Virus record (IMG/VR): IMGVR_UViG_3300049595_001334
Span: 1-23,442 of that record
Strand: one strand, 5' to 3'
Length of the DNA stretch: 23,442 bases
From: a virus
Each line of letters begins with the position of its first letter. Within the stretch, counting starts at the first letter, position 1. Positions 2,296 to 19,431 of the stretch are shown here, one piece after another. A program made the translations under genes and the position numbers. Under the pieces are notes generated by a model that did not search any database, had not been told where the DNA came from, and saw nothing but the letters and a program-made list of their open reading frames with translations.

Positions 2296-2592
2296 TTACC
2301 CTTCACGGCGTCTACGAACCCACTCCGCTCTTATAGCAGCGTTTCGTTTTTCTCTTTTTACTGTGGTTGGTTTTTTGTATTCTTTATTATCACGAATATC
2401 GTCTAAAACTCCACTATCTTTCATAATGCGTTTCCACGCTCTAAGAGCAGCTTCTACATTTCCATTAATAACTTTTACACCATGTGCGTGCCCATAAAGA
2501 TACATTTCTTGGCGTGGTGGTTTTTTCTTTTTATCGTTGTTACGATTATTTCTATCGTTGTTACGATTTTGGTTTTTATTGTTTTCTTGCAT
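2296..2592 (-). CDS. rpsU: Phage-encoded small ribosomal subunit protein bS21
   Basis: The 98-residue product contains a bS21 domain at residues 38-94. It reads VKVINGNVEAALRAWKR, then SGVLDDIRDNKEYKKPTT, then an Arg/Lys-rich helix ending WVRRRR. This follows the bacterial S21 pattern (V.V..ne..d.ALRrfKR...k.GvL.e.R....yekPt..rkrk). bS21 sits near the anti-Shine-Dalgarno end of 16S rRNA and affects initiation, so a phage copy could bias host ribosomes toward phage messages. Residues 1-29 are an unusual Asn/Arg/Lys-rich extension. An internal ATG (residue 30) would give a 69-residue protein of standard bS21 size, and I cannot decide between the two starts. The upstream ATG has no Shine-Dalgarno sequence (AAAAGTT precedes it). 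The gene lies between the internal-protein genes and gp22, so it is probably expressed late. Confidence 0.88.
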   Translation of the reverse strand: MQENNKNQNRNNDRNNRNNDKKKKPPRQEMYLYGHAHGVKVINGNVEAALRAWKRIMKDSGVLDDIRDNKEYKKPTTVKREKRNAAIRAEWVRRRREG

Positions 2593-2601
2593 AACTTTTA
2601 A

Positions 2602-2988
2602 TTAATATATAGGCCCTCTATTTCCTTTTTTCATAGAAATTGCCCATTTTTGTAACATTTTTTTTATATCAGATGGAAGTTGTTTATCATGAATTTTTAT
2701 ATCACCATTATTACTAATGTGTGCAATGGTTTTATAAGAATCGTTTTCTTCTTCGGCTCTATTCCAAACAGTTAACCCATTACCCATATATCCAGAACCA
2801 ATATCATATTTTTTACCTTCATATATATTTGATTCCGTTAAAATATCCAATCCATCTTTAAAGTCAGACATTAAGTTACCCAATTGTCTTTGTTTTGATG
2901 GTGAAATTTTTTTTATTCTATTCAAGTTTTTTTTAATTAAACTACTAAACTCGAAAGAAATGCTTTGTATAATGTCATTTTCGTTCAT
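2602..2988 (-). CDS. Small putative virion protein (128 aa)
   Basis: The function is not established. The ATG overlaps the stop of the preceding 553-residue protein gene (TAATG), so the two are translationally coupled. The N-terminal half is helical and basic. Residues about 50-52 form LTE followed by SNIYEG, a hydrophobic-x-Glu/Ser site of the kind prohead proteases cut. The C-terminal half holds a compact module with GNGLTVWNRAEEEN, YKTIAHIS and LPSDIKKML. From memory, this type of module (GLTVWN...YKTIAHI) recurs in large phage proteins, but I could not run a search. Its place between gp21 and gp22 and its junction with the modular protein suggest that it too is a head component. Confidence 0.75.
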   Translation of the reverse strand: MNENDIIQSISFEFSSLIKKNLNRIKKISPSKQRQLGNLMSDFKDGLDILTESNIYEGKKYDIGSGYMGNGLTVWNRAEEENDSYKTIAHISNNGDIKIHDKQLPSDIKKMLQKWAISMKKGNRGPIY

Positions 2989-4649
2989 TACTTACCCATT
3001 AAAGTTTTTAACAACATTGAAGTTTTATTAATTTTTGACTCAACAAGTTTAAGTTCATTGGGAGCGTGTTTCATTACATCACCATTTGGTAATTCTATGT
3101 TGTAGTATTTTTCATCATCAGCACCATCTTCTTTGTCTAATGATTTAACAACACCAACACCGCCATGAGACATTTCTACTTTATCACCAACTTTAAAGTG
3201 AGATTCGTTTACTGATTCATAAAAAAGATTAGACATCATATCTTTAAGTTTTGGATTTCTAAAATCACCCTTAAACTTTTCTAATGCTCTTTTTGCTTTT
3301 AATGCATTTTTAACAGAAACTACAAAGTATCCAGATTGAACACCACCTTTTTTCTTAGCTGCTAACATAACTTGTGTTCTTTCACCAGCTCCCATTTGAT
3401 TACCCATTGGGTCAATTATGGTGTATTTTTCTTCGTTTAGTGATGAAACTGATTCTTTCACATATTTCATAGATGAATTAGAACCATCGGTAAAGAATAC
3501 ATTCTCACCATCAATCATTTTTACTTTTCTTTTGAATGGTCCTTTTTTACCTAAAGCTGCTTCCCAATGAGGGTTATTAACAACCTTAACCATTTTACCA
3601 ACTTCAATTTCTTCGTTTACTGATTCAAATTTCATATCTTTTGATTGTCCCGGTCTAGCACTATGTGTATTGAATAGAACATATTTACCATTATCCAAAA
3701 TAACAGCAAATCCAAAATCACTATCATACGCCACATTTGTAACTTTTCTACCCTTCATTATGTAATTAAGGTTTTTATTATCACTAAATACTTCGTTTAC
3801 TGATTCAAGTTTTAAATTTCTTTGTGCATTAACTAATCCATTAATAATAGATTTTAAACCACCTTTAACTCCATCAGTATCTTTAGCTTGAACTCTTTTA
3901 TCCAAAATTTTGGTGTTCATCTTTAAGAAGTTGATGATTGCGTTTTCAACAGCGTTCCACTTAATTTCTTCTTCGTTTACTGATTCATCTTTTTTTGCTC
4001 TCAATGCAGCCAAGTCAGATGCTTCAATTTCACCATCACCATCAACATCAAGTTTGTGTTGGTCACCTTTAAGTTCTTCTCTTTTTAACAAAGAAGTTAA
4101 CTTCATAGATTCGTTAGCAAACTTTTTAGCATTTTCTTTATCTTCAGCATCAACACCGGTTACTTTGAATGATTTACCATCAACTTCAAATGAATCTTTA
4201 TTAGCAGCAATTGCTCTAGCTCTTTCTGCTCCAAACTCATTACCTTCTTTGATTTCGTAATATTTACCAAGAACTTCTCCAATTTCATCATAAGCTGATT
4301 CTAATCGTTGTTGCAATTGAACTACTTCGTTTATAGAATTTGAGAATACTTTGTAAGATTCGTTCATTGATTTCATATGTCTTTGAACAGTTACTCTATC
4401 AAACCAATCACCAGTTTCTTTAATAGTTAAAGAGCTTGCGCTTTCAACAATATTTTTGATATTTTCGTGAATTTCAGACAAATTTCCTTTGTGAGAAATC
4501 ATTTCACCTAGCTGATGATATGAAGCAACGGCTTCAAGAAATGCTCGTTTTTCTTCGTTGGTCATTCCTTTTTCATTCTCTTTCTCACCGATGTTCATTC
4601 TACGGTAGTCGAGATTTTGAGATTCTTTAATTAAGTTTTTTAATTTCAT
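2988..4649 (-). CDS. Modular ESVNE-linked putative internal head protein (553 aa)
   Basis: The leader MKLKNLIKES resembles the T4 internal-protein targeting leader MKTYQEFIAEA. A helical region follows to about residue 200, then an EF-hand-like loop LDVDGDGEIEASDL (about 199-212). Exact ESVNE linkers lie at 222-226, 282-286, 342-346 and 478-482, with a variant ESVSSLNE at 399-406. The modules between them are 52 to 71 residues. Two look like SH3/KOW-type barrels (EVGKMVKVVNN after 347; FKVGDKVEMSHGGVGVV after 483). One has alternating hydrophobics (FAVILDNGKYVLFNTHS). The gene overlaps gp21 by ATGA and has GGAG eight bases upstream. It sits where T4 keeps only scaffold genes. I infer an internal virion polyprotein, possibly cleaved at V-N-E by the adjacent protease. 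No enzymatic motif is visible. Confidence 0.85.
   Translation of the reverse strand: MKLKNLIKESQNLDYRRMNIGEKENEKGMTNEEKRAFLEAVASYHQLGEMISHKGNLSEIHENIKNIVESASSLTIKETGDWFDRVTVQRHMKSMNESYKVFSNSINEVVQLQQRLESAYDEIGEVLGKYYEIKEGNEFGAERARAIAANKDSFEVDGKSFKVTGVDAEDKENAKKFANESMKLTSLLKREELKGDQHKLDVDGDGEIEASDLAALRAKKDESVNEEEIKWNAVENAIINFLKMNTKILDKRVQAKDTDGVKGGLKSIINGLVNAQRNLKLESVNEVFSDNKNLNYIMKGRKVTNVAYDSDFGFAVILDNGKYVLFNTHSARPGQSKDMKFESVNEEIEVGKMVKVVNNPHWEAALGKKGPFKRKVKMIDGENVFFTDGSNSSMKYVKESVSSLNEEKYTIIDPMGNQMGAGERTQVMLAAKKKGGVQSGYFVVSVKNALKAKRALEKFKGDFRNPKLKDMMSNLFYESVNESHFKVGDKVEMSHGGVGVVKSLDKEDGADDEKYYNIELPNGDVMKHAPNELKLVESKINKTSMLLKTLMGK
3204..3986 (-). repeat. Dispersed identical 15-mers coding for ESVNE (four copies)
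   Basis: The plus strand reads TTCGTTTACTGATTC at 3204-3218, 3612-3626, 3792-3806 and 3972-3986, always in the same frame (minus-strand codons GAA TCA GTA AAC GAA). The copies at 3612, 3792 and 3972 are spaced exactly 180 bases apart. A related longer variant (ESVSSLNE) lies at 3432-3455. All copies use the same synonymous codons. Confidence 0.95.
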
Positions 4650-5290
4650 GATTTTACTCCAAAGTCACATTCACAATATCCACCAACTTCACAAATAATG
4701 TCTCTCATGATTGTGTTGGCTTTTATGTATTTATAAGTATTTAATTTTTTAGTAACACCTTCTTTGATGATACCTTCATTTGTTGGCGATAAGAAAGCGC
4801 CATGGGTAGATGGGTTAGAGACAAAATCCCAGCAAATCAAATCAAAATCATTTTCAACTGCTACAGTATCTTCGCCAATTTGTTTTACTGACCCCATACC
4901 TCTTGATGAGATACCAACAGTACATCCCGCTTTAATAATTTCTTTAAGAATATTTCCAGCTGGAGTATTTAATATTTCAACCGTACCTACAACATCATCA
5001 CCATTCCAATATACTTCACGAACAATATGCGATGTGTTTTTTAATTCTACAACAGCAGATTCAGGATGGTCTAATTCACCATATGCACGATTTTGTTTAA
5101 TTTCTCTACCTTTGTATTTTTCAACTTCTCTTTCAAGAATGTTTTTAGGATATACTCTACCATTTTGGTTTTTAGCGTTTGCTCTTTGCAATACACCCTT
5201 TACCAAAAAACGACCTGACTTATCCTCAGCCTCTTTAAGCATAGTCGGTGTTACTTCAAACACCATTACATCCATGAGTAATTGCTTCAT
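4646..5290 (-). CDS. 21: Prohead core protease, gp21-like
   Basis: This is the serine protease that matures the T4-type prohead by cutting scaffold, capsid and internal proteins after hydrophobic-x-Glu. From the ATG at 5290 the protein has 214 residues, close to T4 gp21. A TTG at 5302 would add four residues, but the ATG has GGGAG six bases upstream and is preferred. The catalytic His is in GELDHPE (His75). The Ser is in GISSRGMG (Ser128 or Ser129). An Asp in the DFDLICWDFVSNPS region may complete the triad. MLKE/A (17-21) could be a self-cleavage site. The C-terminus carries a Cys cluster (CEVGGYCECDF). The gene overlaps the small gene upstream (TAATG) and the 553-residue protein gene downstream (ATGA), giving tight coupling of the protease to its probable substrate. 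Confidence 0.93.
   Translation of the reverse strand: MKQLLMDVMVFEVTPTMLKEAEDKSGRFLVKGVLQRANAKNQNGRVYPKNILEREVEKYKGREIKQNRAYGELDHPESAVVELKNTSHIVREVYWNGDDVVGTVEILNTPAGNILKEIIKAGCTVGISSRGMGSVKQIGEDTVAVENDFDLICWDFVSNPSTHGAFLSPTNEGIIKEGVTKKLNTYKYIKANTIMRDIICEVGGYCECDFGVKS
4732..4740 (-). promoter_or_regulatory. Late-promoter-like motif ATACTTATA inside the 3' end of gp21
   Basis: The minus strand reads ATACTTATAAATA. This is an exact match to the motif repeated in this window, and it also contains the T4 late-promoter box TATAAATA (4735 down to 4728). It lies 83 bases upstream of the 553-residue protein start, within gp21 codons for NTYKY, so it could drive that protein, bS21 and gp22-gp23 separately from gp21. 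Confidence 0.5.
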
Positions 5291-5430
5291 TATTTCTCCC
5301 AAACTTGTCTTTTACGGTATAAATCAAAAAAAATTCGTGCTATTTCTCTACGAATCATTAATCTGATAGTCTCAAGGTCATTAACCTCAAGAGACTCATT
5401 AATATTTTTTTTGTTACAACCACAACCCAT
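5290..5430 (-). CDS. Small hypothetical protein upstream of the protease (46 aa)
   Basis: This short gene fills the gap between the 166-residue protein gene and gp21. It starts one base after the stop of its upstream neighbour and ends in a TAATG overlap with the gp21 ATG. AGGTG stands six bases before its start. The product begins MGCGCNKKNINES and continues with a predicted amphipathic helix rich in Arg and Leu/Ile (ETIRLMIRREIARIFF). The two Cys at residues 3 and 5 might bind metal or be modified. I do not recognise the family. The exact packing between neighbours and the ribosome binding site make it a real gene, and the coupling suggests a role in head assembly. Confidence 0.8.
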   Translation of the reverse strand: MGCGCNKKNINESLEVNDLETIRLMIRREIARIFFDLYRKRQVWEK

Positions 5431-5431
5431 A

Positions 5432-5932
5432 TTATGCACCTAATTCTTTAATGTTACGAGAAATTTTTAACATTCTTTCAGAAATTTTTCCAAAACGAAT
5501 TTTTGTTGATTCCCAAAAATGTCCTTGGCTTACTCCCATTTCTGTTTTTAATTTAGAATTTTGGTTTATAAGTTGTTCTACTTCGTATAATTTACGATTG
5601 ATTTCTTTAATAGCCAAATTAACCTTTTTCTTGGCCGACATTGACTCATCTTTTTTGTATGCTCTATAAGTAGCCTCAATCAAACTCTCTAATTTAGATT
5701 CTAATTTAGAAACTGATTCAAAATGTTGTTTTGATTTTTTAGATTTTTTATAACCTAATACTTCAATATGGTCATTGTCCATATCATCTTCACTTTTAGC
5801 AAAAGCTCGTGGAGTTCTTGGTGGACCAGCACCACCATCAAGGTTTGCTGTTACATTTGCTTCTTCAATTTCTTTTTCGGATTCCAATTGTTTAAATTTA
5901 GATTCCAATTGTTCCATTAAAAATTTAGACAT
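5432..5932 (-). CDS. Putative head or prohead core protein (166 aa)
   Basis: The function is not certain. The position, between portal and protease, matches T4 gp67/gp68, which are prohead core proteins. The N-terminus is a charged helix with repeated LES and EQLES segments. It is followed by a Pro/Gly loop (DGGAGPPRTPRAFAK, about residues 31-45), an acidic patch (SEDDMDNDH) and the strand IEVLGYKKSKKSK. The rest is predicted helical or coiled coil (KLESKLESLIEA, then INRKLYEVEQLINQN). FESV near residue 71 recalls the ESVNE linkers of neighbouring proteins but lacks NE. The start has AAGGG upstream and lies one base after the preceding stop, so it is cotranslated with the 278-residue protein. 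Confidence 0.75.
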   Translation of the reverse strand: MSKFLMEQLESKFKQLESEKEIEEANVTANLDGGAGPPRTPRAFAKSEDDMDNDHIEVLGYKKSKKSKQHFESVSKLESKLESLIEATYRAYKKDESMSAKKKVNLAIKEINRKLYEVEQLINQNSKLKTEMGVSQGHFWESTKIRFGKISERMLKISRNIKELGA

Positions 5933-13059: not shown

Positions 13060-15582
13060 TTATTTCAAACCTTCCATCTTACTTCTATTTTTATAGACAC
13101 CAGCTAACCACTTCATTGATTCTTTAGTTTTTGGAAAATCTTTGTATTCTTTATAAAATTGAATTACAAAATCTTTAAAATCTTTTGCTTCTTGTGCAAT
13201 AATATCAATATCACTCAATGAAGCTTCGTTTACTGATTCAAATTTGAGTTTATTAAGGTTTATATTACCGATAGTTCTTTGGAATAAGTATCCATTTTGA
13301 AATTCAGCATGGCTTCCACCTCTAAAGAAAAACTCACCCTTACCGTATGCAGTATCCAAACTTTTTTGTATATGATTTACTATTTTGTTAGTTCCTATTT
13401 TTCTAACTGCAATACTTGCTGCCTTTTTATCCTTAAAAGAAAACAATATTTTTCCATTTGTCTCACTTATATCAAAATCTATACCTAATATATTTGCACG
13501 ATTAGTATTTTCGTTTACTGATTCAACTAAATCACTTTTGTAATTTTTATTTACAAACTGAACTAAACTTTGTGCATATTTGCCAGTAATTTTACCTACC
13601 ATCTTAACTCCATTTGGAGTATGGGTATACATTTCTTGTGAACCAATTCCGGCAGTTTTTAATACCTTACCATCCGTATTTAAGTTTCTACCTTCTAAAG
13701 GTTTTTTATCAAAAAATGCCTTAACTACTTTCGTATCGGCTGGAAGTAGAGCTTCGTTTACTGATTCTCCGATTGTGGTCACTTTCCAATAGTATCCTTT
13801 ATTCTTTTCTGATGCTGATAATCTTTTATTTAGAGTTTCAACTTCTTTTTCAGCTTCTCTGTAATTTCTGTCAACCGATAATGTTTTTAAAATTTTATTT
13901 TTGTTAGGGTCAAATAATGAAATTTTAACACCTTCGTTTACTGATTCTTTCATTCCAAACTTGGAAATAATCATTTTTTGGATTTTGTTACCAGGATTCC
14001 CAACCATTGCAGTTACAAAATCCATTTTATCTGAAAGTTTACCTTTTTTTAGATATGAGTATAGTTTTGTAGAATCTAAATTATTATCATCAATAAACTT
14101 TTGAACTCCTTCAGGTCTTGTTGCAGTTAATGAAGCAATTGCTACTGCCCATTTTGTTTGGCTTGGCACTGCTTCGTTTACGGATTCTTTAATACCACCC
14201 TTGTTGATATTTGATATCCAACCATTTTTAATGAACCAATCCATTTTTTCTTCAAATGATGGGTTAGTCTTTTTAGCCCACATATTATACTCAACTTTTT
14301 TGTTGAATTGTTTTTGATTTTTAAGAATAGCACTTACTACTTTGTCTTTGTTAGTATCACCTTTAGATACATCTTTCATACCTAACTTTGCCCAAGTTTT
14401 GTAATCTACAAAATAAGCTGAATCATCTTCTTTATAGTATCCAAAGTGAAGTTTACCTTTACCATCAGAAAATACAGTTTTACCAACAACTGATTTAAAA
14501 TCTTCGTTTACTGATGGAATTACTTCGTCTTGGTAAAGAACTTTTACATCTTTAAGATTACCATTAAATTCACCCTTCATGGTCATAATCGTAACCGTAT
14601 CACCACTAATTTTTTTTACCATTCCGGTTTTATTTGCAGATTTAAAATGAACAAAATCACCTATTTCAAAATCACCTTTGTTGGCTTCGTTTACTTTATT
14701 TTCCATCACACCCACAGCAGTATCGCCTACTACGAAATCAGGTTTGGTTGCATATTTTTTATTTACAATACCAACTCTATTACCACTCTTATCTTGCACT
14801 ATATAAATTGGCATTGGTGATGTGGCGAAGATGTATCGTATGCCTGTTTTTTTCAACTCTGACCCAATATTCATAAACGAAGACGCTGATTGAACTGCTG
14901 ACTTAATGGCTTCCATATCCTTTGGTGAAATACGCTCATTCATTGATTTTTTCATTTTAATTACCTCTGCAATCGTTTCATCATTTGCCTCTTTAACAGG
15001 ATACATTTTTCCGTTAAATTCAAATTCGGTTAAACCTTCTTTTCGTGCGTTAAACAAAGCACCGGTAAAAGCATTACCCTCTTTAACACTATAAATTTCT
15101 TGTTCGTTTTTCATCAAACGATTTTTTGCTAACAAAGAAAGAAACTTAATATCAGCGTCTGCAATTTGTTGTAATTCATCTTTAGGCAACTTGTCCAACA
15201 TCGTAATTAAACGATTATACGCTGGACTATTTGGGTTGATTTTATTAATGTCGTTATATGCCTGCTTTAACATATCAAGGTGGGTTTTATCAAATCTTTC
15301 GCTTACTGATTCTGACTTAGTTTTCCAAGTTCCACCTTTTTCTTTATACCACTTAGATGCAAATGCGTTAGCATATGCTGATGGGTAAACATCGTATTTA
15401 GCTTTTGCAGCTGATTTTGCTCTACTCCAAAGTGCGGGATTAGTTGGTTCGTTTTCTTCGTTCATTTCAACTGATTCAGGAACACAATTAGGAACTTCCC
15501 TACCACTTTTCATTTTCATTCCTACTTGTTTATACCCATCCCAACATGGACCATTTTCGTTTACGAATTTTTTTTTATTCAT
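13060..15582 (-). CDS. Large modular ESVNE-linked putative virion polyprotein (840 aa)
   Basis: This is a string of small modules joined by ESVNE or near copies, at residues 91 (ESVSE), about 295 (NKVNE), 356 (PSVNE), 466, 546, 606, 687 and 782. The modules are mostly 54 to 105 residues. The leader MNKKKFVNE/N ends in V-N-E. A Cys-pair module follows (GPCWDGYKQVG...VPNCVPE), then one reading NPALWSRAKSAAKAKYDVYPSAYANA. Both remind me of modules scattered in phage and large-virus proteins. Residues about 300-355 look like an SH3/KOW barrel (FEIGDFVHFKSANKTGMVKKI). Others are helical (AVAIASLTATRPEGVQKFI; SLSDIDIIAQEAKDFKDF). AAGGA precedes the ATG. I infer an internal head polyprotein processed by the gp21 homologue. 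No catalytic site is visible. The mature products, if any, are unknown. Confidence 0.85.
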   Translation of the reverse strand: MNKKKFVNENGPCWDGYKQVGMKMKSGREVPNCVPESVEMNEENEPTNPALWSRAKSAAKAKYDVYPSAYANAFASKWYKEKGGTWKTKSESVSERFDKTHLDMLKQAYNDINKINPNSPAYNRLITMLDKLPKDELQQIADADIKFLSLLAKNRLMKNEQEIYSVKEGNAFTGALFNARKEGLTEFEFNGKMYPVKEANDETIAEVIKMKKSMNERISPKDMEAIKSAVQSASSFMNIGSELKKTGIRYIFATSPMPIYIVQDKSGNRVGIVNKKYATKPDFVVGDTAVGVMENKVNEANKGDFEIGDFVHFKSANKTGMVKKISGDTVTIMTMKGEFNGNLKDVKVLYQDEVIPSVNEDFKSVVGKTVFSDGKGKLHFGYYKEDDSAYFVDYKTWAKLGMKDVSKGDTNKDKVVSAILKNQKQFNKKVEYNMWAKKTNPSFEEKMDWFIKNGWISNINKGGIKESVNEAVPSQTKWAVAIASLTATRPEGVQKFIDDNNLDSTKLYSYLKKGKLSDKMDFVTAMVGNPGNKIQKMIISKFGMKESVNEGVKISLFDPNKNKILKTLSVDRNYREAEKEVETLNKRLSASEKNKGYYWKVTTIGESVNEALLPADTKVVKAFFDKKPLEGRNLNTDGKVLKTAGIGSQEMYTHTPNGVKMVGKITGKYAQSLVQFVNKNYKSDLVESVNENTNRANILGIDFDISETNGKILFSFKDKKAASIAVRKIGTNKIVNHIQKSLDTAYGKGEFFFRGGSHAEFQNGYLFQRTIGNINLNKLKFESVNEASLSDIDIIAQEAKDFKDFVIQFYKEYKDFPKTKESMKWLAGVYKNRSKMEGLK
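13225..15312 (-). repeat. Dispersed identical 15-mers coding for ESVNE (four exact, several near copies)
   Basis: Exact TTCGTTTACTGATTC (plus strand) occurs at 13225-13239, 13510-13524, 13753-13767 and 13933-13947. One-mismatch copies are at 14173-14187 and 15298-15312, and partial copies start at 14503 and 14686. All are in the same reading frame of the 840-residue gene and fall between modules. The copies at 13753 and 13933 are exactly 180 bases apart. The same 15-mer is in the 553-residue gene 9 kb away. Confidence 0.95.
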
Positions 15583-15591
15583 AATAATTCC

Positions 15592-16290
15592 TTAATTAAT
15601 ATAAGCGGTTAATTCAAAATTACCACTTTCCATTCCATAAACGGAAAAATTTAAACCTTTTCTTTGTGGTTTATCATTTTTAAGAAGTCCAACCGTAAAT
15701 GAATGAGTTTTACCTATACCAGGTCTTGAACGTGAATATTTTCCACCGAGTGCAACTTGTGTTTGCCAATCATCTTCATCAATTTTAAATCCTTTTTTCT
15801 CGGCATATGTTCTAGCTGCGTCTGCGGCTGATGAAAATGATTTATGATATGTTTGGTAATTTGATTCGTTAAGGTATGCTGATTCTTTAAATATTTTCAT
15901 GCCTTTAGATTCTACCAACTTTTCAATTTTCTCACCCATGGGTCTTCCAATAGTCATTGATACATAAAATCCAATTGCATTTACGATATCTTTACCATCC
16001 CACTTACAAATATTTGCAACATCGGTACCCAAATCATATTGATACATTTGTATAAGGTCCTTCTCCGCCATTGGGTCACCTTCGTATTTTGCCTTTGAAC
16101 CGAATAGGACAGGAACCTTCTTTGATTCCGAATGGAAGTTAGCATCGGTTAATGCTCCCATCAAAATGTGCATTACTGCAAATTGGTGGTTTGGTCTACC
16201 TTTAGATAAATCCTTTAATTCTTTATCTAATAAAGATTTAACCATTTTATTCATGGCTGCATCTTCGTTAAGTAATTCAGTTAATTTCAT
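15592..16290 (-). CDS. Putative internal virion protein (232 aa)
   Basis: I chose the ATG at 16290, ten bases after the upstream stop and with AAGGTG close before it. A GTG at 16314 would overlap the upstream gene. From this ATG the protein opens MKLTELLNEDAAMNK, another leader ending in hydrophobic-x-Glu (LLNE/D). The middle is helical (QFAVMHILMGALTDANF; VNAIGFYVSMTIGRPMG). Near two thirds of the length FKESAYLNESNYQ acts like a linker. A C-terminal module of about 85 residues follows: SSAADAARTYAEKKGFKIDEDDWQ, then SFTVGLLKND and FELTAYIN. I do not recognise an enzyme. The gene is followed after nine bases by the 840-residue polyprotein gene and shares its leader style, so a virion role is inferred. 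Confidence 0.72.
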   Translation of the reverse strand: MKLTELLNEDAAMNKMVKSLLDKELKDLSKGRPNHQFAVMHILMGALTDANFHSESKKVPVLFGSKAKYEGDPMAEKDLIQMYQYDLGTDVANICKWDGKDIVNAIGFYVSMTIGRPMGEKIEKLVESKGMKIFKESAYLNESNYQTYHKSFSSAADAARTYAEKKGFKIDEDDWQTQVALGGKYSRSRPGIGKTHSFTVGLLKNDKPQRKGLNFSVYGMESGNFELTAYIN

Positions 16291-16300
16291 GTATTCACCT

Positions 16301-16891
16301 TCATTTATTTTCACTCTGCGTTTCTAACCTTTTAATAAAGTTTTCTTTAAAAGTATAAAACTCTTCTTCTATTTTTTTTTCCATAACTTCCCACGACACA
16401 CCATCCCAATCCTCAACCGAACCATCTTCGTTAATGAATTTGGTATTTAATGCCGCTTTCAAAGCTTCTTTTTCAAGTTCGGCCTGTTTTAACCAGGCTT
16501 TACCATTATCTAACATTTTTTGTCGTTCGTATTCTTCATATTTTCCTTCAATTTTTAATTGATGTTCCATATCAATAACACAATCAAAACACATTCCGTG
16601 AAGAGATTTCATCTTCACATCATTTCTATTTAAGGTTGTGCAGGTGCAAACCTCTTTACGACACTTTGGGAATGTGTTAAGTTCTTTTCTTAACTCTGAA
16701 AGTTTACCAAGTTTAACTTTGTATCCTTTTTTTTGTTCCCAAATGTTTTCTTCATCATCGGTCCATTGGTCACCAACTTCTCGTTTGATAAAGTCCTTAC
16801 TTTCCCCAAATGAAACAGTCGTTTTGGTTTGAGTTCGGTGTGTTCCAGCAATCATTTCTTTAACTGCCTTTACATTATTTAATTTTGCCAT
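16301..16891 (-). CDS. Cysteine-rich putative zinc-binding protein (196 aa)
   Basis: The family is not recognised. Five Cys lie in a CX4CXC-X16-CX2C arrangement (residues 77, 82, 84, 101, 104: KCRKEVCTCTTLN ... GMCFDCVIDMEH), which suggests a zinc ribbon. The N-terminal 70 residues are basic and polar (THRTQTKTTVSFGES; KVKLGKLSELRKE). The C-terminal half is a long charged helical region (KIEGKYEEYERQKML; KKIEEEFYTFKENFIKRL). A zinc module between helices fits an adaptor, connector or nucleic-acid-binding role, but this is only inference. The start is preceded by AAAAAGTT without a Shine-Dalgarno sequence, and a promoter-like motif is 26 bases upstream. Confidence 0.7.
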   Translation of the reverse strand: MAKLNNVKAVKEMIAGTHRTQTKTTVSFGESKDFIKREVGDQWTDDEENIWEQKKGYKVKLGKLSELRKELNTFPKCRKEVCTCTTLNRNDVKMKSLHGMCFDCVIDMEHQLKIEGKYEEYERQKMLDNGKAWLKQAELEKEALKAALNTKFINEDGSVEDWDGVSWEVMEKKIEEEFYTFKENFIKRLETQSENK

Positions 16892-16929: not shown

Positions 16930-19431
16930 TTATTCGTAGAAAAGTCCTAAAATTTGATTAAGTGGCGCAAATGTACCTGTGAGTTTGTAAGTATTACCCT
17001 TATATACAAATACGATACCTTCATTAGGAACAATTTTGTCTTTACCACCAATAGCAGCAAGTCTTTGTAATTCTAATTTTAATTTTGCAATTTTCTTTGG
17101 GTCTCCTGCTTTTTGAACATCTTTAACTGTTTGGTCAAGTCGGTCTTTCATATTTCTAACAGCCGTATCAGGATTTACAGTTAAAACTGAACTCATAAAC
17201 GAAAGCACTTCAGCACCTACTCCCAAGAAAATATCTTCAAATGGTCTAATATTATCCTTGGCGATTTTAGCATGGTCGTTTTTATCTATACCTTGTGCCC
17301 AAGACAATACCTTTGGGTCTTCTATACTTTTACCATCTAAACGAAATCCCTTATCATAAAACGCCCATCGTTTTACAAGACCCATTTTAGTTCTATTATC
17401 AAGTGTTGATGGTGATTTTGTATCTACAAAGTTTTCCCACCACTTTTGGTGATATTCTGCAACACCATCAGTATCTTTCAAGTTAAATTCTTTTTGAAGT
17501 TTACCCAACTGACCATCAAACTTTGATTTTAAAGAAGTAAGTTTTTGTGACTTTGGTAATTGAGTCACGGGTGGTCCTTGAATAGTATACTTTGACTGAA
17601 TAGTTTGATTGATTTGTTTAATCATTCCAGCAAGAATTTTTGCATCACTTTGGTCAGCGCCAATCGCTATACCATCTTCATTGTATTCAGTTGTATTGTG
17701 GAATATCAATAGGGCTTGACCATACGGAATGACATTTACCGATGTTGGCCAGATTACTTCAAGGTTCATAAACTTTGCACCTTGTTTGAAGATTTTGTCT
17801 CTTTGTGCTTTTGATAGACCTTTAATAGCTGATGTGAGGTCTTTCATTGCAAAGTTGTAGGCGTCAGTTAATCCACCTCTACCACCAAACTTGGAAGCGA
17901 CCCCACTAATGTCTAATGCTTTTTCACCACGATTTGCAAGATGTCCTTTATTTCGTGCAGCAATTAAACCCATGTCATCTCTCCACGAAATTGCAAGGGC
18001 TTGACCATCGGTTTTTTCTCTTGCAAGTTCTAACTCACCTGTTAGGGCTCCGTTGATGATTTGTTTTAAATCACCAAAAGTTAAATTCATTTCAGTATCA
18101 AATGGGTGAGCCATATGACCATACGCGCCACCCTCGACTAACAAACCTTCGCTTAATCCAATTTCTTTTTTATCAAGGAAATTTATAAACTTAATACCAA
18201 CAGCGGTGGCTGTTTTTTCAATATCAGATTTCCAATCAGAGTAATCCCTATTTGCGGGTCTATTACTTTTTGGGTAATAAGAAACTTGTGTTGGTCGGTC
18301 TTGAACAAATTGTGTTTCTAAATCAGTTCCTAATATCCAATCAACCACTTCAAATCCCAATCGTTTTGCAACTTCGTTATTTGCTTTTTGATATTGTTCT
18401 TTACTAGCCCACGAAAATGCAGGGCCATTATCTACCATAGCTAACGAAATAGGATTCATAGTAGAACCTTCGGTTTTAAGGTCTTGAACATCAATTTGTT
18501 TCCTACCTTGTTTTGCCGTTGTAAAGTCATCGCTTACAGGTGGAATTTCTAAATCAGTATTATTTCTGATATTTCTTCTTGAAGAGTATTGATAGTAATC
18601 TGATGTTCCCTTTGCATCTTTTGAAATAATAACATCGGCTTTTGGAAAATGTAGTTGAGTCCAACCACCATTTACAAACCACACATCGTCTTTTTGACCT
18701 GGATTTTTCTTTCCAAGTTTACGGGTTTTTCCTGGCAATACAAACATAGTATCTGGCTCACCGGCATCGGCTCCATAAAGAGAACCTTCTAAAAGTGATT
18801 TAATATCAAACGATTGAAAAAATGATTCCATTACGGATTCAACTTTAATCATTTTAGATGAAACCAAATCAAAAATCTTTTGGTTAAATTTTGGATATGC
18901 TGTTTTAAAAAACTTTATCCGTAATTCTTCATTTGGATTTGACATACCACTTCTAACTTCAGTTCCACTTAACGGATTTTTTTGAGCAGGAGATGCATAA
19001 ACATACCCACCATCTTTTACAGGTATATCAACAACACCTTTATAAGGTCTAAAGTATTTACCACCCAAACGACCACTATCCTTTTCACCAACTACCGTAA
19101 TAAATGCAGTTGTATTTTCATCAAATTTATCAAGAATTTCTTTTGGAGCGTATGGATTTTTAACTTCTACAATTTTATTTTTTGGTATTCCAAACATAGT
19201 AGTCATAATTTCTACCTTTTCTTTGAATCGAAAAGGAGACTTTGGAATTTCTATTTTATCAGAAGTTCCAATATAAACATTATCTTTACCAAATTTTTTT
19301 ACTAAATGTTCGTATGTAGCATAGTGACCTTTATGGAATGGTTGAAACCGACCCACATAAGTCACAATTGTTTTTTTAATATTTTCGGTTAAGATACTTT
19401 CCTTAACCCACTCTTTAATTAATTGTCCCAT
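16930..19431 (-). CDS. Fusion of HxGH nucleotidylyltransferase and KxDG ligase-like domains (833 aa)
   Basis: Residues 20-200 are a cytidylyltransferase-fold nucleotidylyltransferase, resembling NMN adenylyltransferase (NadM). The phosphate-binding motif is GRFQPFHKGH (27-36) and the second nucleotide motif is SGTEVR (155-160). A linker ESVMES (198-203) follows. The remaining 630 residues end in a region with motifs of the covalent nucleotidyltransferase (DNA/RNA ligase) superfamily. Motif I is EKTDG (Lys473 as adenylation candidate). A motif III-like Glu lies in NLEVIWP (Glu558). Motif IV is EGIVFVYKG (804-812). Motif V-like YKLTG holds Lys816. The order and spacing fit, although motif III to IV is long (about 245 residues). 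The leader MGQLIKEWVKESILTE/N recalls neighbouring virion proteins. Substrates are unknown. The first domain is fairly secure; the second is inferred from motifs. Confidence 0.75.
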   Translation of the reverse strand: MGQLIKEWVKESILTENIKKTIVTYVGRFQPFHKGHYATYEHLVKKFGKDNVYIGTSDKIEIPKSPFRFKEKVEIMTTMFGIPKNKIVEVKNPYAPKEILDKFDENTTAFITVVGEKDSGRLGGKYFRPYKGVVDIPVKDGGYVYASPAQKNPLSGTEVRSGMSNPNEELRIKFFKTAYPKFNQKIFDLVSSKMIKVESVMESFFQSFDIKSLLEGSLYGADAGEPDTMFVLPGKTRKLGKKNPGQKDDVWFVNGGWTQLHFPKADVIISKDAKGTSDYYQYSSRRNIRNNTDLEIPPVSDDFTTAKQGRKQIDVQDLKTEGSTMNPISLAMVDNGPAFSWASKEQYQKANNEVAKRLGFEVVDWILGTDLETQFVQDRPTQVSYYPKSNRPANRDYSDWKSDIEKTATAVGIKFINFLDKKEIGLSEGLLVEGGAYGHMAHPFDTEMNLTFGDLKQIINGALTGELELAREKTDGQALAISWRDDMGLIAARNKGHLANRGEKALDISGVASKFGGRGGLTDAYNFAMKDLTSAIKGLSKAQRDKIFKQGAKFMNLEVIWPTSVNVIPYGQALLIFHNTTEYNEDGIAIGADQSDAKILAGMIKQINQTIQSKYTIQGPPVTQLPKSQKLTSLKSKFDGQLGKLQKEFNLKDTDGVAEYHQKWWENFVDTKSPSTLDNRTKMGLVKRWAFYDKGFRLDGKSIEDPKVLSWAQGIDKNDHAKIAKDNIRPFEDIFLGVGAEVLSFMSSVLTVNPDTAVRNMKDRLDQTVKDVQKAGDPKKIAKLKLELQRLAAIGGKDKIVPNEGIVFVYKGNTYKLTGTFAPLNQILGLFYE

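Follow-up and report, generated by a model that had tools for sequence, protein, structure and literature searches.

The locus among the head genes

The window, the whole stretch of 23,442 nucleotides of viral DNA analysed here (IMG/VR record IMGVR_UViG_3300049595_001334), covers the head genes of a T4-like phage that is uncultured and water-borne. It encodes the major capsid protein gp23 (PF07068, 8.9e-39), the portal protein gp20 (3.5e-72), a homologue of the prohead core protease gp21 and the large terminase, and also holds a fragment of an SbcC-like gp46. Within this region lies the gene for a protein of 833 residues, whose coordinates had been given in an earlier reading of the sequence alone and proved correct: the minus-strand frame begins with ATG and runs without interruption, and no comparable ORF exists on the plus strand across the same interval (Table 1). 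No tRNA gene was found in the window, a search for the late-promoter motif TATAAATA gave nothing above chance, and a sigma-70 promoter scan stayed at shuffle level. Similar surroundings were observed in relatives of the protein, with a terminase homologue within the fetched flanks at 192 of 215 family loci, a portal at 137 of them, and an S77 protease in all seven relatives' records that were tested.

Other observations concern the neighbouring genes. A gene for phage ribosomal protein bS21 (2296-2592, minus strand; PF01165, 7e-12) is located between gp21 and gp22, and RpsU is annotated in the same region of Microcystis phage Mel-JY01. The mechanically assigned starts of 4646-5302 (TTG) and 15592-16314 (minus strand, GTG) are probably wrong, and nearby ATG codons would give proteins beginning with MKQLLMD... 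and MKLTELLNED..., respectively, the latter resembling the leader of the 833-residue protein.

Table 1. Positions in the window of the 833-residue protein, its modules and motifs, and the predicted processing enzyme
Feature	Position	Strand	Basis
Whole coding sequence	16930..19431	(-)	833 aa + stop, ATG start, open throughout; full-length relatives exist
Leader, residues 1-16 MGQLIKEWVKESILTE, predicted head-targeting propeptide, cut after E16	19384..19431	(-)	Leader type; predicted cleavage
NMNAT-like HxGH adenylyltransferase domain, residues 20-200	18832..19374	(-)	Pfam, NCBIfam, PDB profile 9e-8, Foldseek, VIA
HxGH motif HKGH, residues 33-36, within GRFQPFHKGH	19324..19335	(-)	Alignment A4
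SGTEVR motif, residues 155-160	18952..18969	(-)	Aligns with archaeal NMNAT SGTEVR
Linker ESVME, residues 198-202, candidate prohead-protease site	18826..18840	(-)	ES[VIL]ME in close relatives
KSLLE, residues 211-215, second candidate site LLE/GS	18787..18801	(-)	Predicted cleavage
Variable middle region, residues 216-433	18133..18786	(-)	Two small modules; 216-341 modelled disordered or unsure
LLVE, residues 430-433, candidate cut LLVE/GG before ligase	18133..18144	(-)	Junction conservation; low pLDDT
Ligase-fold (covalent nucleotidyltransferase) module, residues 434-833	16933..18132	(-)	AlphaFold, Foldseek, VIA, alignments A1 and A2
Motif I KTDG, residues 473-476, predicted AMP acceptor Lys473	18004..18015	(-)	EK[TL]DG in 163/163
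Motif III LEVI, residues 557-560, Glu558	17752..17763	(-)	Glu invariant in A1, A2, A5
All-helical insertion between motifs IIIa and IV, residues about 621-801	17029..17571	(-)	Model secondary structure
Motif IV EGIV, residues 804-807, Glu804	17011..17022	(-)	EG[ILV]V in 162/163
Motif V YKLTG, residues 815-819, Lys816, single lysine	16975..16989	(-)	K[LF]TG in 162/163
Prohead core protease gp21 homologue, predicted processing enzyme (S77, T4-type)	4646..5302	(-)	PF03420 1.6e-32
A slash within a motif marks the predicted cut.

Two nucleotidyl-transfer modules in one chain

The sequence-only reading had described two unrelated nucleotidyl-transfer modules in this protein, an observation that is confirmed by Pfam and by the fold matches of both modules. 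Its HxGH domain is real, being matched by Pfam CTP_transf_like over residues 25-111 (26.5 bits against a cut-off of 21). The ten NCBIfam matches were NMN adenylyltransferases or a general nucleotidyltransferase domain model, all under their curated cut-offs and, in the case of the NMNAT equivalog models, far below them (TIGR01527, 26.6 against 181 bits; NF002243, 30.4 against 127 bits). A profile built from 69 relatives matched a PDB entry of archaeal NMNAT (9e-8), and the alignment took in both the HxGH and the SGTEVR segments. In alignment A4, R28, H36, S155 and R160 were invariant and H33 was substituted in a marine clade. The AlphaFold model of residues 1-424 was confident for residues 20-215, and each of the 35 PDB structures that Foldseek matched at E<=0.001 is an NMN/NaMN adenylyltransferase, so that both the motifs (GRFQPFHxGH and SGTxxR) and the fold of an NMN adenylyltransferase are present in the N-terminal domain. 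Since VIA scored phosphopantetheine adenylyltransferase as high as NMNAT (Z 12.6 and 12.9), the domain is predicted to be an adenylyltransferase of the NMNAT type, for which VIA does not single out NMN as the acceptor. The cytidylyltransferase option of the earlier reading is unlikely and was rejected, because the close matches in Foldseek and VIA are all ATP-using adenylyltransferases.

In the C-terminal part, the four ligase motifs were found exactly at the places claimed for them, with K473 in KTDG, E558 in LEVI, E804 in EGIV and K816 in YKLTG. These motifs are not due to chance, since motifs I, IV and V are kept in 162 or 163 of 163 distinct full modules; the four motif residues are also invariant in alignments A1 and A2, and the order I (KxDG), III (Glu), IV (EGxV) and V (Lys) is that of the covalent nucleotidyltransferase superfamily. 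The ligase fold anticipated for residues 400-833 is borne out by the AlphaFold model of the module (417 aa, 47 sequences, pLDDT 85.1, pTM 0.81), which places the motif residues on or adjoining strands, and by structure searches. The best 50 PDB matches listed by VIA were all covalent nucleotidyltransferases (ligases or capping enzymes), led by the RNA ligases of Naegleria (Z 8.7, a modest score) and T4 (Rnl1, Z 8.5). DNA ligases and capping enzymes came further down the list (Z 5.5-6.5). Foldseek, whose leading PDB matches fall in the same superfamily, placed a tRNA ligase and T4 Rnl1 on top, weakly (E-values >0.001).

At the sequence level, residues 434-833 were recognised by no Pfam, NCBIfam or PHROG model. 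Pfam hits up to E = 1 comprised nothing but CTP_transf_like, PF09511 (Rnl1) and PF09414 (Rnl2) being unmatched, and sequence-profile searches for solved ligases failed with the whole module as well as with motifs I-IIIa alone. The profile searches that had been proposed for the two parts were productive for the N-terminal one (CTP_transf_like and NMNAT matches) and returned no known ligase for the C-terminal one. Because the protein ends 17 residues after Lys816, the module lacks an OB domain. On the predicted structures, it is highly probable that residues 434-833 have a covalent-nucleotidyltransferase (RNA/DNA ligase) fold and the N-terminal part an NMNAT-like fold.

Relatives, architectures and junction sites

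A whole-protein search retrieved 58 loci, a search of IMG/VR with the ligase module at least 548, and a divergent version from the Microcystis phage, used as query, 304 loci that may overlap those of the other scans. The family is abundant in IMG/VR and almost entirely uncultured: among 50,697 phage records, Microcystis phage Mel-JY01 is the one isolate that has the module, which is otherwise present in two unannotated metagenomic genomes. A cellular origin was rejected, since only seven loci were found in 84,980 species genomes, six of them titled as MAGs and one in an uncultured assembly; these seven are presumably viral contigs. A 410-kb contig in an uncultured Firmicutes assembly (L238) carries a much diverged ligase module (26% identity) and an S77 protease match, and probably belongs to a huge phage that was placed in a bacterial bin. 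In the literature, no paper was found on DUF6267, Mel-JY01 or a fusion of nucleotidyltransferase (NTase) and ligase.

All 89 distinct full proteins (394-1848 aa) have the ligase module at the C-terminal end, and the NTase, present in 81, always stands ahead of it. The two are encoded on neighbouring ORFs in L149, and in some relatives (L077, L105, L108, L110 and L062) the ligase alone follows a similar leader. Anything from 0 to more than 1000 residues may separate the two domains, and the central part of the chain, which has no family match in the window's version (residues 216-433), differs from relative to relative. The modules inserted between the two domains or ahead of them differ by clade and habitat, and include a PolyA_pol/CCA-adding domain (L034, L102 and L112), an HD domain (L112), a GNAT acetyltransferase (L067), zinc peptidases (PF05618 in L199; HELTH/HELVH motifs recognised by eye in L015, L021 and L049), DUF5661 (L031, L046, L111 and L118) and, in seven marine relatives (L151, L154, L158, L183, L184, L192 and L211), a P-loop kinase of the AAA_33/zeta/PNK class, a broad class whose members here may not be RNA kinases. 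In ten relatives' records, which may be incomplete, exactly one copy of the ligase module was present in each, and a recognised RNA ligase was encoded elsewhere in four (one of which also had a DNA ligase), the other six having neither kind. Such variable strings of unrelated domains have been named polyvalent proteins (PMC5512222), and the present family conforms to this pattern, with chains of at least two unrelated enzyme domains that vary between relatives and are encoded among virion genes.

The likeness of the leader and the linker to those of putative virion proteins, pointed out in the sequence-only reading, was upheld: ES[VIML]xE occurs 12 times in the window compared with 1.0 expected from shuffles, ten times in 2988-4649 and 13060-15582, once in 5432-5932 and once at residues 198-202 of the 833-residue protein. 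The two ORFs richest in the motif, 13060-15582 and 2988-4649 (both minus strand), look like strings of small domains separated by ESVNE/ESVSE (six and four copies, respectively), and are likely to be further protease-cut head polyproteins. ESVNE as a general site for the whole family was weakened as a candidate, because ESxxE is confined to some of the members, whereas nearly all carry [LIVM]xE ahead of the ligase. The form [LIVM]xE/GG directly precedes the ligase in 149 of 155 distinct junctions, whatever lies ahead of it, and [LIVMF][LIVM]xE is found at residues 7-20 of 66 of 74 distinct leaders versus 58 of 501 control ORFs, which are mechanical ORFs and include some that are not genes.

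The leader and junction sites are of the (I/L)xE type expected of substrates of a T4 gp21-type prohead protease, which cuts at (L/I)xE. The gp23 of the window has VSE/A at what we take, comparing by eye with T4 gp23, to be the T4 cut position. In T4, gp21 trims internal proteins as well as the 65-residue propeptide of gp23 (PMC9958956). Since the protein has an (I/L)xE leader and the window encodes a prohead protease of the T4 type, head packaging with cleavage of the polyprotein is the best reading and appears rather probable. The earlier suggestion that the two enzymes are separated by the prohead protease and delivered in the virion is well supported as a prediction by the leaders, the junction sites, the head-gene synteny and the S77 protease, each of which is indirect evidence.

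A possible parallel exists in cyanophages, in which DUF6267 (PF19782; T4-like GC 71) adjoins the gene of an HxGH NTase annotated as 'cytitidyltransferase' in S-H9-2, P-HM2 and S-CAM9; in S-PM2 the two are fused in the reverse order. DUF6267 resembles the ligase module in its length and in the order of its motifs (KWDG, EG[YF]V and K[LI]V), and a Foldseek search of BFVD matched the ligase-module model to the S-PM2 protein (E 7.6e-6), but differs by an Asp at the motif III position where the module has Glu, by its reverse order relative to the NTase and by its location among replication genes; a profile-profile comparison (hhalign) of the two was not significant (probability 0.2%). DUF6267 loci with ligase-like motifs are L219:2769-4552, L227:2501-4269, L228:2501-4824 and L230:411-2186. 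DUF6267 may be a distant ligase-fold family, and the pairing of NTase with a ligase-like protein may be older than the present lineage, which we offer as a lead only. A small module, CW[DK]GYKQ.G.KMK.G..V.NCV, is common to the N-terminus of 13060-15582 (minus strand) and to L219:4799-5620, a Synechococcus phage protein encoded beside that phage's cytitidyltransferase.

Proposed function and comparison with known systems

The programs used support two enzyme folds, conserved catalytic residues, a modular architecture, head-gene synteny and conserved junction sites; packaging, cleavage, ejection, RNA as substrate and NAD as product are inferred. The best overall explanation, to which we give a probability of roughly 0.45, is that the gene encodes a late head polyprotein whose N-terminal leader would take it into the prohead core, where the T4-type prohead protease would cut after (I/L/V)xE, removing the leader at ILTE/N and freeing the ligase at LLVE/GG. 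The products would be an NMNAT-like adenylyltransferase and a ligase-fold enzyme of 400 aa, both of which would be ejected into the host with the DNA. There, Lys473 would accept AMP and the ligase domain would seal RNA, the likeliest targets being tRNA and other RNAs cleaved by host defence nucleases, with the CCA-adding, P-loop kinase and HD modules of relatives supplying end-healing steps, and the adenylyltransferase would restore the NAD (or a similar dinucleotide) that host defence depletes. Repair of RNA, in particular tRNA, after injection is the preferred function, favoured because RNA ligases rank first, the OB domain is missing and modules in relatives act on RNA; RNA as the substrate nevertheless has somewhat less than an even chance, and the NAD role is less certain. 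Phages are known both to counter host nucleases that cut tRNA and to restore NAD (PMC7824862, PMC9503650), and an NMNAT-like domain fits the latter.

Other explanations draw on parts of the same evidence. A head-packaged enzyme that mends nicks in the packaged or newly injected genome would agree with the shared superfamily (T7 DNA ligase matches at Z 6.5), with the adjoining terminase gene and with the finding of a recognised ATP-dependent DNA ligase in only one of ten relatives' records; however, RNA ligases outscore DNA ligases in both Foldseek and VIA, no OB domain follows motif V, and the accompanying modules, where known, act on RNA (CCA-adding), which makes sealing of DNA improbable. 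Slightly less probable is a late non-virion multidomain enzyme acting in the dying cell, neither packaged nor cut. The leader and xE sites would then be incidental, which the short and common (I/L)xE consensus and the want of a late-promoter signal would allow, but which is at odds with the retention of the junction site, with leader sites well above those of control ORFs and with the conserved placement beside head genes.

The direct coupling of NAD chemistry to ligation that the sequence-only reading had envisaged would require an uncut protein, in which NAD formed by the NMNAT out of NMN and ATP is consumed by an NAD-dependent ligase, with NMN released again. Candidate cut sites between the domains predict their separation, the ligase occurs without the NTase in several relatives, the middle region and the inter-domain spacing are variable, and no NMN-binding Ia domain was recognised. 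The coupling is not supported, and the chance of such a cycle is slim, despite the NMNAT-like NTase, the single lysine in motif V, which is also a feature of NAD-dependent ligases, the fusion in most distinct architectures and the cyanophage pairing of a ligase-like DUF6267 protein with an HxGH NTase. Marginally slimmer is the chance that the ligase-fold domain works in RNA capping, protein AMPylation or another nucleotidyl transfer in place of ligation, moving AMP or GMP from Lys473 to a protein or RNA end of the host: capping enzymes have the common fold (Z up to 5.9) and the module, with its large helical insertion, forms a separate family, but capping enzymes score under RNA ligases and carry the OB domain that is absent here. 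The interpretation given in the sequence-only reading is, on the whole, partly supported.

Extending RNA repair and NAD restoration to the whole family, one might suppose that a widespread aquatic T4-like lineage packages a protease-activated kit (a new RNA-ligase family, CCA-adding enzyme, end-healing kinase/HD and NMNAT) that is delivered on infection and counters tRNA-cutting and NAD-draining defences before phage gene expression, a proposal that we consider doubtful. If true, it would add a ligase-type family with its own domain layout, account for a large 'cytidyltransferase' protein family of uncultured aquatic phages, and perhaps for the cyanophage DUF6267 too, and extend injected phage proteins from host-modifying and anti-restriction factors to RNA repair.

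Compared with T4 RNA ligase 1, Naegleria RNA ligase and T4 RNA ligase 2, the module shares the fold, the motif order I-III-IV-V and the absence of an OB domain after motif V, but it has no sequence-level match to them and no C-terminal domain, carries a conserved HxxHPF segment ahead of motif I, and is fused, always C-terminally, in a head-gene polyprotein. It also departs from the T4 Rnl1 and Rnl2 families in motif V, where K[LF]TG, with one lysine, replaces the two-lysine KxK; this single lysine and the roughly 180 residues of helical structure inserted between motifs IIIa and IV set it apart from the RNA ligases known to us. The N-terminal domain shares the GRFQPFHxGH and SGTEVR segments and the fold with archaeal NadM-type NMN adenylyltransferases, but scores far under their equivalog cut-offs and has an inter-motif segment unmatched by NMNAT models. 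Like the internal or ejected head proteins of T4 (Alt and IPI-IPIII), the protein has a short N-terminal leader ending in (I/L)xE and an S77 protease in the same genome (PMC9958956), whereas here several enzymes lie in one chain with internal sites and packaging is a prediction. With phage polyvalent proteins it has in common a position next to head genes and a lengthy, changeable series of unrelated enzyme domains (PMC5512222); it differs in that the mentions of RNA ligases in that account describe no such fusion, and in that its parts look made for separation by the prohead protease. The protein is a fresh form of two known things, the virion polyvalent proteins and the covalent nucleotidyltransferases.
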